From contig NZ_FNPB01000003.1 of assembly GCF_900107195.1 (NCBI RefSeq), positions 1 to 64,000 on the forward strand: DNA of 64,000 nucleotides, given 5' to 3'. Positions 30,743 to 34,494 of this stretch are shown here, piece after piece. The position numbers were made by a program, and so were the translations under genes. How positions within the stretch are numbered: the first letter of the stretch is position 1; each line of letters opens with the position of its first letter. The notes under the pieces are model-generated. The model was not told the DNA's origin. It ran no database searches and saw only the letters and a list, made by a program, of their open reading frames with translations. This stretch comes from Halobellus clavatus. GTDB lineage: Archaea; Halobacteriota; Halobacteria; Halobacteriales; Haloferacaceae.

Positions 30743-31222
30743 ATGGATCCCGTCACGTGGGTTGCGCTCGGCCTCGCCGCGGTCGCGGTGATCGGTGCGG
30801 CCCTGCCGCTCCTTCCCGGCGGCGCGCTCTCAGTCGTCGCGGTCCTGCTCTACTGGTGGTCGACCGGCTATGCGGCGCCTTCGACCGCGCTCGTCGTCGT
30901 GTTAGTCGCCGTGGGCCTGCTCACGATGGTGGTCGATTACTTCGGCGGCGCGATCGCCGCCAGGGCCGGTGGCGCGTCGGCGCTCACGACCGCCGCGGCG
31001 GTCGTCGTCGGGGTGCTGTTGCTCTTCGTCGCGGGCCCGATCGGGTTCGTCGCCGGCGTCGCCGCGACCGTGTTCGCCGTCGAGTTCGCCCAGCACGCCG
31101 ACGCCGAGGCGAGCGGGCGAGTCGCGCTCTATGCCACCGTGGGCGTCCTCGCGTCGACCGCCGTCCAGATCCTCCTGACCGGCACGATCCTCGTCGCGCT
31201 CGTCGTCGTCGCGCTGCTCTGA
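30743..31222 (+). CDS. DUF456 family membrane protein
   Basis: A 159-residue protein with about four or five membrane helices. It has the DUF456 pattern: LGLAAVAVIGAALPLLPGG near the start (conserved PGLPG-like turn), VVDYFGGAIAARAGGAS after the second or third helix, and GPIGFVAGVAATVFAVEFAQ next. The function of DUF456 is unknown. Its stop codon lies at the very edge of a palindromic element that begins at 31222. Confidence 0.85.
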   Translation: MDPVTWVALGLAAVAVIGAALPLLPGGALSVVAVLLYWWSTGYAAPSTALVVVLVAVGLLTMVVDYFGGAIAARAGGASALTTAAAVVVGVLLLFVAGPIGFVAGVAATVFAVEFAQHADAEASGRVALYATVGVLASTAVQILLTGTILVALVVVALL

Positions 31223-31304
31223 TACTGATGACACGCACTTTTCATCGCCGAGTGCCACTCCCGGTGTCGGCGCTCGGCGGTAGAGAGACGAGAGTAATCA
31301 GTAT
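31222..31304. repeat. Palindromic repeat element, copy 1 (83 bp)
   Basis: Outer arms ATACTGAT (31222-31229) and ATCAGTAT (31297-31304) are perfect inverted repeats. Inside, GCCGAGTGCC pairs imperfectly with GGCGCTCGGC. The whole element is homologous to 34399-34480. It starts at the stop of the DUF456 gene and ends about 80 bp before the next gene. It could be a small non-autonomous mobile element, a terminator-like structure or an RNA element. Confidence 0.75.
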
Positions 31305-31353
31305 GAATCGATCAAGAGAACGCCTCCGGCAGAATGCCGATCCGACGGTGGAA

Positions 31354-31359
31354 TTATAT
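31354..31359 (+). promoter_or_regulatory. TATA box of acetyltransferase-oxidoreductase pair
   Basis: TTATAT lies 24-29 nt before the GTG at 31383, so the mRNA is probably leaderless and the palindromic element lies just upstream of the promoter. Confidence 0.65.
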
Positions 31360-31382
31360 CGGTCCTGCTCCAACGAGGGTCT

Positions 31383-31865
31383 GTGAGCGTCAACGTCGAG
31401 ACGAAGGAGGATCCCCCCGGCTCCGCGGCGTACGCGGAGGCCGCCTGGAACCTGAAGGAGGCGATCCGGGCACAAGAGGGCGTCCTCAAACAGCGCCGAA
31501 CCTTCTTCGTCGACGCCTATCGCCGTGCTCGCGACCATCTGCTTTTCGAGGAGGACGAACTGATCGGCTTCGCATCCGTCCGCCGGGACGGGTACATCCT
31601 GTTTCTCGCGGTCGCTCCCGATCGGCGGGGCGAGGGCCACGGCAAGCGCCTCGTCGCCGCGGCGCTTCAGGAACACGAATCCATCTCCTGTCACGCCCGC
31701 GCGACCAACGAGTCGGCGCTGTCGTTCTACGAGCACCTCGGTTTCGATATCCAACGGCGGATCACGGGCTACTACGAGGACGGCGGCGACGCGTACTACC
31801 TCCGGCTGGGCGACGGCGGGTCGCTCCGCGAGAAGTTCGCCGAGTTCTTCCGCCGCCGGAGATGA
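31383..31865 (+). CDS. GNAT-family N-acetyltransferase
   Basis: The 160-residue protein has the GNAT acetyl-CoA motif: AVAPDRRGEGHGKRLVAAAL (Q/RxxGxG/A type, about residues 79-98), followed by ATNESALSFYEHLGFDIQRR. The N-terminal 45 residues form a helical extension. It ends in REKFAEFFRRRR, a basic tail unusual for a halophile. The substrate is unknown. The start is GTG at proper TATA spacing. Its stop overlaps the next ATG by 4 bp, suggesting a functional link with the oxidoreductase. Confidence 0.88.
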   Translation: MSVNVETKEDPPGSAAYAEAAWNLKEAIRAQEGVLKQRRTFFVDAYRRARDHLLFEEDELIGFASVRRDGYILFLAVAPDRRGEGHGKRLVAAALQEHESISCHARATNESALSFYEHLGFDIQRRITGYYEDGGDAYYLRLGDGGSLREKFAEFFRRRR

Positions 31866-33031
31866 GCGGCGCCTCCGACCCCCTCTCGGTCGGCGTCCTC
31901 GGCTACGGATTTATGGGCCGAGCGCACGCGAACGCGCTGGCTCGCTTGCCGATGTTCTTCCCCGACGCCCCGCAGACAGAGCGAGCGGTCCTGGTCGGAC
32001 GCGACGGCGACGCGGTCGAGACGGCCGCGAGTCGGCTCGGGTTCTCCGCCACTGCGACCGACTGGCGCGAGGTCGTCGACGAGGTGGACGTGTTCTACAA
32101 CCTCGGGCCCAACCACGTCCACGCCGACCCCTCGATCGCCGCGCTGCAGGCTGACACGCACGTCCTGTGCGAAAAGCCCCTGGCGCGGACCCTCGGGGAG
32201 GCCGCAGCGATGCGCGACGCGGCCAGGGACGCCGGCGCGGTGGCGGGCTGCGGCTTCAACTATCGGTACGTCCCCGCCATCCGGCTCGCCAAGCGGTACG
32301 TCGAGGACGGACGGATCGGGGACGTCAGGCAGTTCCGCGGGCAGTACCTCCAGGACTGGCTGGCGGATCCCGATTCCCCCTGGTCGTGGCGACTCGACGA
32401 GGGCCTCGCCGGCTCCGGCGTCCTGGGTGACCTCGGCGCGCACACCATCGATCTGGCTCGCTTCCTCGTCGGCGACTCGGCCGGGGCGATCGAACGCGTC
32501 TCCGGGCACCTCCGGACCTTCGTCGAGGAGCGCCCGGCACCCGACGGCGAGGGGACGCGGCCGGTCACGGTCGACGACGCCTACACCGCGCAGGCCGAGT
32601 TCGAAACCGGCGCCGTGGGGACGTTCGAGGGGTCGCGGTACGCCCGCGGTCACGAGAACGACCACCGGATCGAGATTCACGGCTCGGCGGGCAGCCTCTC
32701 GTTCTCGCTGGAACGGCTGAACGAACTGCGGTACGCCGGCGCAGACGACCGGGGGTACGAGCGGATCCTCGTCACCGGCGAGGACGACCCCTACGGCGAG
32801 GCGTGGTGGCCCCCGGGGCACACTCTCGGATGGGAACACGCCGTCGTTCACGAGAACTACGAGTTCCTCCGCTCGATCGCTGGCGACGGGGCGTTTCGGC
32901 CGAGTTTTGCAGACGGGTACGCCGTCCAGCGGGTGCTCGAAGCGATCGAACGCGCCGACGAACGGGGTGAATGGGTCGCCGTGGACGAGATCTCCGGCGA
33001 GGGCGTCGCGGCCGGCAACCGAGAGGAGTGA
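31862..33031 (+). CDS. Gfo/Idh/MocA-family oxidoreductase
   Basis: The 389-residue protein has an N-terminal NAD(P)-binding Rossmann domain with GVLGYGFMGRAHANAL (GxGxxG), the family's EKPLARTLGEA (catalytic-type Lys in EKP, near residue 108), and LGDLGAHTIDLARFLVGD in the substrate domain. It probably oxidises or reduces a sugar or inositol derivative. It is coupled by a 4-bp overlap to the acetyltransferase gene. Confidence 0.92.
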   Translation: MSGASDPLSVGVLGYGFMGRAHANALARLPMFFPDAPQTERAVLVGRDGDAVETAASRLGFSATATDWREVVDEVDVFYNLGPNHVHADPSIAALQADTHVLCEKPLARTLGEAAAMRDAARDAGAVAGCGFNYRYVPAIRLAKRYVEDGRIGDVRQFRGQYLQDWLADPDSPWSWRLDEGLAGSGVLGDLGAHTIDLARFLVGDSAGAIERVSGHLRTFVEERPAPDGEGTRPVTVDDAYTAQAEFETGAVGTFEGSRYARGHENDHRIEIHGSAGSLSFSLERLNELRYAGADDRGYERILVTGEDDPYGEAWWPPGHTLGWEHAVVHENYEFLRSIAGDGAFRPSFADGYAVQRVLEAIERADERGEWVAVDEISGEGVAAGNREE

Positions 33032-33094
33032 TGTGGACGCCGGGGTCGGTGACGAGAGTGGCGATAGGGACACCGCCGCGGTCTCGCCCCCAGG

Positions 33095-33943
33095 TCAGCG
33101 GTTCTTTACGCCGTTGTCGGTGACGAGCTGATCGACGAGCTCCATCGGGGTCGCGTCGTAGGCCGGGTTCTCGATCTGGACGTTCTCGATCGGTTCGAGC
33201 GAGACTTCCGCGGGCGGGCGGTACTCGTTCTCGAAGACGAAGCCGTCGTCGACGACCTTCGCGGCCGACCCGACGATGGTGACGGGGACGTCGAGGTGGG
33301 TCGCGGTGGCGACGATCGGATACGTCCCGACGCGGTTGTACAGCGTCTCCTCGACGATGCAGTCCATCCCGAGTACCACCCTGTCGCACTCCGGAAGGAA
33401 CGACCCGACCGCGCCGTCGACTAACAGGTGCGGTTCGACGCCCTCGACCGTCGCCAACTGACGCGCGATCTTCCGACCGAGGTAGCGCGGCCGGGCCTCC
33501 GTCACGTACGCGGTCAGTTCGATCCCCGAATCGACTGCCGTCTCGATGGCTTCGAGGACCGTCGAGGAGTAATCGTGCGTGAGGATCGTCTCGCCGTCCT
33601 CGAAGGTCGGTGCCGCGTTCGCCGCCGCCCGGGACTTTCCGTGTCTCACGTCCTCAACGACACGGGCGGAGACCTCTTCGAGAAGCTCTTTCGCCTCGTC
33701 GACGGTGTCCTTTCGCCCGACGACGTTGACCAGAACCGTCTCCATCGCGTTGAACAGCGACGCGTGCGAGGGGTTCGCTCGCTTGAGCGCGCTCACGTTG
33801 CGTTCGAGATCCCGCTCGAACTCCTCGACCGTGGCGTGCTCTCGATCTAGCAGTTCCGAGAGCGACTGCGTCGCCTTCACGGCGACGACCGACGAACTGT
33901 GCGTCTGCATCTCTCGGATCTCCGCAATGGTCTCGTCGATCAT
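33095..33943 (-). CDS. eIF-2B alpha/beta/delta-like protein
   Basis: The 282-residue protein belongs to the aIF2B/MtnA/ribose-1,5-bisphosphate isomerase family. It has TILTHDYSSTVLEAI, VTEARPRYLGRKIARQLA, VVLGMDCIVEETLYNRVGTY and PVTIVGSAAKVVDD in order, typical of the C-terminal Rossmann-like domain. The N-terminal helical domain is also complete. In archaea such proteins may bind aIF2 or act in nucleotide-derived ribose metabolism; the active-site Cys and Asp of the isomerase are not clearly placed, so the role stays open. Confidence 0.85.
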   Translation of the reverse strand: MIDETIAEIREMQTHSSSVVAVKATQSLSELLDREHATVEEFERDLERNVSALKRANPSHASLFNAMETVLVNVVGRKDTVDEAKELLEEVSARVVEDVRHGKSRAAANAAPTFEDGETILTHDYSSTVLEAIETAVDSGIELTAYVTEARPRYLGRKIARQLATVEGVEPHLLVDGAVGSFLPECDRVVLGMDCIVEETLYNRVGTYPIVATATHLDVPVTIVGSAAKVVDDGFVFENEYRPPAEVSLEPIENVQIENPAYDATPMELVDQLVTDNGVKNR

Positions 33944-34010
33944 ATCTGAAGGTGGACGAGTCAGGTGAAAGACCTTCCGACGGCGCGGGTCTCGAACCCC
34001 CGGCGGTGGC

Positions 34011-34328
34011 TCACTCGGTCCGGCCGTCGCGGTCGAGCGCCTCGGGTTCGGCGTCTCCGCCGTCGCGGTCGATCGCGTCCGGGTCCTCCCCGCCGTCGCC
34101 GGCGTCGTAGCGCCGGGCGTACGCGAAGACCGAGATCGCGACGACGATCCAGACCACCGCGCCGACCCGGATCGCGAAGGTCACGCGGGACCCCCAGGTC
34201 GGCAGGGGTGTGCGGAGCGAGAGGGCGGCGACGACCGGTGCGCCGACGACGATCGTGAGCACGAACGTCGTCTGCATCACCCACCCGTAGTCGACGCCGT
34301 CTGGATCGGAAGTCTCGACCGGTTGCAC
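34011..34328 (-). CDS. Small two-TM membrane protein (DUF5822-like)
   Basis: The 105-residue protein begins (GTG) VQPVETSDPDGVDYGWVMQT, followed by two helices: about 18-38 (TFVLTIVVGAPVVAALSL) and 50-72 (VTFAIRVGAVVWIVVAISVFAY). It ends in an acidic DGGDAEPEALDRDGRTE tail. The N-terminal DPDGVDYGWVMQ pattern is one I associate with the haloarchaeal DUF5822 family; this is from memory. The open frame extends upstream to 34415, into the palindromic element, so the GTG is preferred. Confidence 0.7.
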   Translation of the reverse strand: MQPVETSDPDGVDYGWVMQTTFVLTIVVGAPVVAALSLRTPLPTWGSRVTFAIRVGAVVWIVVAISVFAYARRYDAGDGGEDPDAIDRDGGDAEPEALDRDGRTE

Positions 34329-34398
34329 GAGCGGGCCTTCGTTGGCAGACGCAAAGACGTGATGGTTTTCGACGGTGGTGTCACCGACGCAGGGTCTG

Positions 34399-34480
34399 AT
34401 AGTGTTTACTCTCACTTTTTACCGCCGAGCGCCACCCCCGTTGGCAGCGCCCGGCGGTACGAGATGAGAGTAAACACTAT
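34399..34480. repeat. Palindromic repeat element, copy 2 (82 bp)
   Basis: Perfect 16-bp outer arms ATAGTGTTTACTCTCA (34399-34414) and its reverse complement (34465-34480); inner ACCGCCGAGCGCC pairs with GGCGCTGCC/GCGCCCGGCGGT in a near-palindrome. The element is homologous to copy 1 at 31222-31304. It lies 15 bp past the stop of the hydrolase gene and 71 bp before the small membrane protein gene. Confidence 0.8.
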
Positions 34481-34494
34481 GAGACGGCGTGTCC

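Follow-up and report, generated by a model that had tools for sequence, protein, structure and literature searches.

Known Short Mobile and Palindromic Repeats

The described elements closest to the hairpin family reported here are MITEs and the small mobile repeats (SMRs) of Haloquadratum, the latter compared by description only. SMR-A and SMR-B of Haloquadratum walsbyi (e.g. HqIRS41, 80 bp) reportedly show no target duplication and target other mobile elements, and their mobilization has been described as enigmatic (PMC3119063). The likeness between the SMRs and the hairpin family lies in haloarchaeal hosts, a length of 80–110 bp, multiple copies, and inverted ends unrelated to known transposons. 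In contrast to the SMRs as described, the hairpin family has TSA (TGA or TCA) on both sides and strikes gene ends.

Like MITEs, the members of the hairpin family are short (78–81 bp), non-coding and present in several copies (~19 in their own genome), with 14-bp inverted ends and a duplication of constant length, where TSA stands on both sides of 116 copies and a single TGA is found in empty sites. The family is classed as MITE-like only, no longer element with its ends having been seen in the places searched. Tourist-like MITEs, of the PIF/Harbinger-IS5 group, are likewise short and gene-less, with inverted ends and a 3-bp duplication; the PIF target is a 9-bp palindrome with a central TNA. 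The hairpin family differs from these elements in that no parent transposon was found for it and that a PF13359 (DDE_Tnp_4, PIF/Harbinger) transposase was detected in 0 of 243 haloarchaeal genomes. Moreover, the whole of the hairpin element forms one near-palindrome of fixed length, with covarying ends.

REP elements are dispersed extragenic hairpins with conserved mismatches, and in both respects the family resembles REP/REPIN elements with RAYT, and PATEs. These, however, need a Y1 transposase and a GTAG-like motif on one side, whereas in several hosts of the hairpin family no Y1 gene was detected. The palindromic elements of Rickettsia are similarly dispersed, but are found in-frame inside genes (PMC10969869), whereas the hairpin family spares genes or occupies the stop codon. 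No description of an ~80-bp hairpin family of this kind was found in the literature covered, a search that left most subscription journals outside its range.

Two Palindromes in the Window

The window, comprising the whole 64,000-nucleotide stretch of Halobellus clavatus DNA that was analyzed, contains two palindromes, reported in an earlier note, that are homologous along their full length and whose ends were refined here to those given in Table 1. No other inverted repeat in the window approaches element 2 in length (39-nt arms, 85%). As single-stranded DNA, element 2 folds 10–12 s.d. better than shuffled sequences. Element 1 is more decayed and folds just 1.6–2.9 s.d. better than shuffles, with a score of E 5.6e-19 against the covariance model R1. 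The outer arms are ATACTGAT/ATCAGTAT in one element and ATAGTGTT/AACACTAT in the other, and both of the compensated differences described earlier are present: position 4 changes from C-G to G-C, and position 7 from A-T to T-A.

Table 1. Positions in the window of the two palindromes, their flanking repeats and the adjoining genes
Feature	Position	Strand	Remarks
DUF456 protein gene, 159 aa	30743..31222	+	PF04306, E 4.6e-24; stop codon carries element 1
Left 3-bp direct repeat TGA of element 1	31220..31222	+	Stop codon of the DUF456 gene
Element 1, 81-bp palindrome	31223..31303	.	Decayed copy; 11/14 outer pairs
Right 3-bp direct repeat TGA of element 1	31304..31306	+	
Left 3-bp direct repeat TGA of element 2	34397..34399	+	
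Element 2, 80-bp palindrome	34400..34479	.	Well-preserved; 14/14 outer, 12/14 inner pairs
Right 3-bp direct repeat TGA of element 2	34480..34482	+	12 bp from the hydrolase stop codon
Alpha/beta hydrolase gene, 259 aa	34495..35274	-	PF12697, E 5.8e-25; just upstream of element 2 as read along the gene

The reported closeness of both palindromes to a stop codon was confirmed, with element 1 sitting on that of the DUF456 gene and element 2 just past that of the hydrolase gene. A location 70–80 bp ahead of a gene start, also claimed for both, was found for element 1, where a GNAT gene begins ~79 bp downstream, and is unconfirmed for element 2, where the start on the minus strand is uncertain. In the relatives compared, the place of the left repeat of element 1 is occupied by one single TGA stop codon.

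Conserved Architecture and Covariation of the Arms

All copies of the family share one plan, comprised of a 14-bp outer stem, an internal loop of 6+6 unpaired nt, a 14-bp inner stem and an apical loop of ~12 nt, and nearly all are 78–81 bp in length. The outer stem starts and ends with TA, with the conserved end pattern TA..G..T.CT.T, and the inner stem usually has TACCG at its start and CGGTA at its end. Inner-stem sequences are unrelated between groups, yet the plan and the length are kept, and the internal loop pairs in just 23% of cells.

A structure-filtered set of copies inflates covariation, and the fair test therefore used 26 Halobellus copies collected by BLAST with no structural filter. 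Ten pairs were changed on both sides in this set as compared with 4.6 in shuffles, the observed value being reached by 0 of 500 shuffles, and shifting the pairing partners abolished the covariation. At pair 3/78 (alignment columns 3 and 80) all of A-T, C-G, G-C and T-A occur within one genus. The interior of Halobellus copies is found in either orientation relative to TGA (53 vs 36 in one set), and of 52 classified copies, 9 have an apical loop that is inverted with respect to the internal one. The earlier proposal that the palindrome is preserved by selection or by a copying process is upheld by covariation above that of all shuffles, together with the loop inversions. As compared with copy L031, five copies of one genome (G006; L147, L148, L152, L153 and L154) have an inverted apical loop in common, with the outer loop in its usual orientation, and it seems that in this genome the flipped-loop form has itself multiplied.

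Polymerase template switching between inverted repeats has been described to homogenize their arms and invert their spacers (PMC8604942; see also PMC8794818). Judged from the aligned copies, such switching would explain the compensatory arm changes without any RNA function, and arm complementarity is probably kept mainly in this way. Template switching alone would not hold the loops unpaired or the length constant across families, and consequently we infer that selection for a shape or spacing required by an enzyme maintains the 14-6-14-12 geometry and keeps the internal loops unpaired.

Copy Number and Distribution

The source genome, a 3.75-Mb Halobellus draft, carries ~19 dispersed copies of the family. 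Element 2 as the query retrieved five further copies in this genome at 96–98% identity and ~12 more at 72–90%. Two copies (L020 and L022) are strongly decayed or halved, which suggests that old insertions decay in place and are not cleanly excised.

The exact pattern of the element has matches in H. inordinatus, and in H. limi the element is found at 14 places on one plasmid. Copies are present in 9 of 17 Halobellus genomes (E<=1e-3), several species having none, with a maximum of 58 matches, a count in which one copy may match on both strands. With the covariance model, full-length relatives were identified in 29 of the 243 genomes of the order, spread over 14 of 77 genera and five families. 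The pattern of a second sub-family matched 35 of the 243, with up to 121 matches in one genome and zero control matches. Sampling across the phylum gave 11 positive genomes of 294, all within the same order, and no match to the element was found in phage records and IMG/VR. One haloarchaeon outside the family of the window's host (G127, label f7) has 121 matches to the TACGG sub-family pattern.

In one Halobellus genome (G012), the copy at L036:~1501-1580 has the usual ends with a wholly different inner stem, TACCGGTGGTTCGC, like the type found in other families; horizontal transfer between haloarchaeal families is a possible origin of this copy.

Target Site and Insertion

Identical flanking triplets were observed for 117 of 151 candidates found by structure, and in 116 of these 117 the triplet was TGA or TCA. 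Copies occupy Y-TSA-R sites, with the central 3 bp on both sides of the element. Read along TGA, the triplet has G-W-C on either side, giving a dyad-symmetric 9-bp sequence, GWC-TSA-GWC, and the same symmetric target is seen for copies away from stop codons. At orthologous, syntenic places of elements 1 and 2, ~10 relatives are without the element. For three other insertions, sequences made by joining the two flanks with a single TGA align across the one TGA of the empty site in a relative. The suggestion that the palindromes belong to a family of small mobile palindromes is borne out by these empty orthologous sites and flanking 3-bp duplications, and by the copies in the source genome and the dozens in its relatives.

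On the strength of these sequence comparisons, elements 1 and 2 are probably (at a probability of about 0.7) insertions of an ~80-bp non-autonomous mobile element of a haloarchaeal family that would be moved in trans. The symmetric target and the 3-bp duplication are consistent with a dimeric transposase that cuts with a 3-bp stagger, and for this reason the best guess for the enzyme, which would be encoded elsewhere, is a dimeric DDE-type transposase. It may recognize the conserved ends (TA..G..T.CT.T) together with motifs of the internal loop.

The duplicated TSA is unusually invariant for a target duplication, and as it is always TGA or TCA, it could alternatively stem from a site-specific recombinase. 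The main rival to a DDE-type enzyme is a recombinase that would recognize the structure of the folded hairpin and move it, with the invariant TGA as a crossover sequence and not a target duplication, by analogy with an integron integrase and its attC hairpins or with a tyrosine or serine recombinase having a 3-bp TGA overlap. We consider this unlikely. It would account for the constancy of the flanking TGA/TCA, for pairing that is retained while the sequence of the arms varies, and for conserved internal-loop mismatches within a constant total length, but it should also impose one orientation of the element relative to TGA, and both orientations are common unless the loops flip later. Moreover, no candidate recombinase was identified.

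Placement at Stop Codons

As judged by frame and codon-position GC, a coding-like frame terminates at the TGA in 66 of 116 copies, as compared with 5% of random TGAs. Of 12 copies inspected on the annotated plasmid of H. limi, 6 lie exactly on an annotated stop codon, with lpdA, a CcdA-like gene, glyA and triose-phosphate isomerase among the hosts; another 3 of the 12 are <= ~21 bp past a stop codon and 0 of 12 are inside a gene. Since TGA or TCA stands on both sides of the element, an insertion on a stop codon retains a stop codon.

Stop codons make up 11% of the non-coding TSA sites on the H. limi plasmid and 22% of those in the window (unweighted). When weighted by the target motif, the expectation at stops rises to 28% and 51%, respectively, both being upper estimates since stop sites formed part of the motif's training set. 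A strict preference for stop codons was dropped, the motif-weighted null accounting for much of the placement. The placement would largely follow from the loss of harmful insertions, copies landing in gene interiors presumably being removed by selection, and from the resemblance of GWC-TGA to gene ends. An extra preference for stop codons beyond these two effects is possible.

The earlier note had also offered terminators or structured RNA as an explanation, in which the hairpins would be functional RNA or 3'-end structures (a terminator or an RNA stability element) acting in the 3' untranslated region. Placement directly after stops and the covarying stems are what such a function would lead one to expect, but the same placement is predicted for 28–51% of copies by the target motif and gene exclusion alone, many copies are distant from stops, the position is not conserved in relatives, and the strand relative to the gene is not fixed. 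Scanning against Rfam, at relaxed as well as gathering thresholds, gave no family match, the sole weak match, to the mir-3198 model (E 0.13), being attributable to chance. Positive support for an RNA function was thus not found, and we regard it as very unlikely.

Search for the Mobilizing Enzyme

A search of the source genome for an autonomous parent by its end pattern gave only matches that belong to short copies. Outside this genome, the non-exhaustive search covered one H. limi plasmid, on which no autonomous element with the family ends was seen, and 30 IS5-like loci, none of which carries these ends. At L092:1401-2960 of G127, two inverted, decayed relatives of the element flank an IS5-like element near one copy; this IS5-like element was considered as a parent and rejected as an independent neighbor.

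Movement as a PATE/REP-type hairpin by a single-strand transposase of the IS200/IS605 type (Y1, HUH) is the least probable of the alternatives. Haloarchaea commonly carry IS200/IS605 elements and PATEs (PMC3119063), and the hairpin adjoins a fixed short sequence. However, TSA stands on both sides of a symmetric target where such elements have a one-sided motif and no duplication, the orientation of the element is not fixed, and Y1_Tnp (PF01797) had no match in six element-bearing genomes (G003, G006, G007, G039, G040 and G244), several of them copy-rich, so that Y1 was rejected as the required mobilizer.

For the non-autonomous element moved in trans, terminal bases that vary and yet covary would be odd if the transposase were sequence-specific. 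It is tentatively possible that the family represents a novel transposition system, in which the enzyme would read the folded 14-6-14-12 hairpin by its shape and not its sequence, insert it at GWC-TGA-GWC and dock harmlessly on stop codons, and in which a copying step may regenerate the matched arms.

Implications

Covariation by itself is no proof of a functional RNA, and caution is called for where it is found. The covarying arms and inverted loops of this family would document template switching cleanly in a natural setting. Several families of haloarchaea commonly carry the element, which inserts precisely, often on stop codons without harm. As its hosts include the cultivated Halobellus limi and H. 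inordinatus, the movement of transposase-free haloarchaeal repeats becomes testable.
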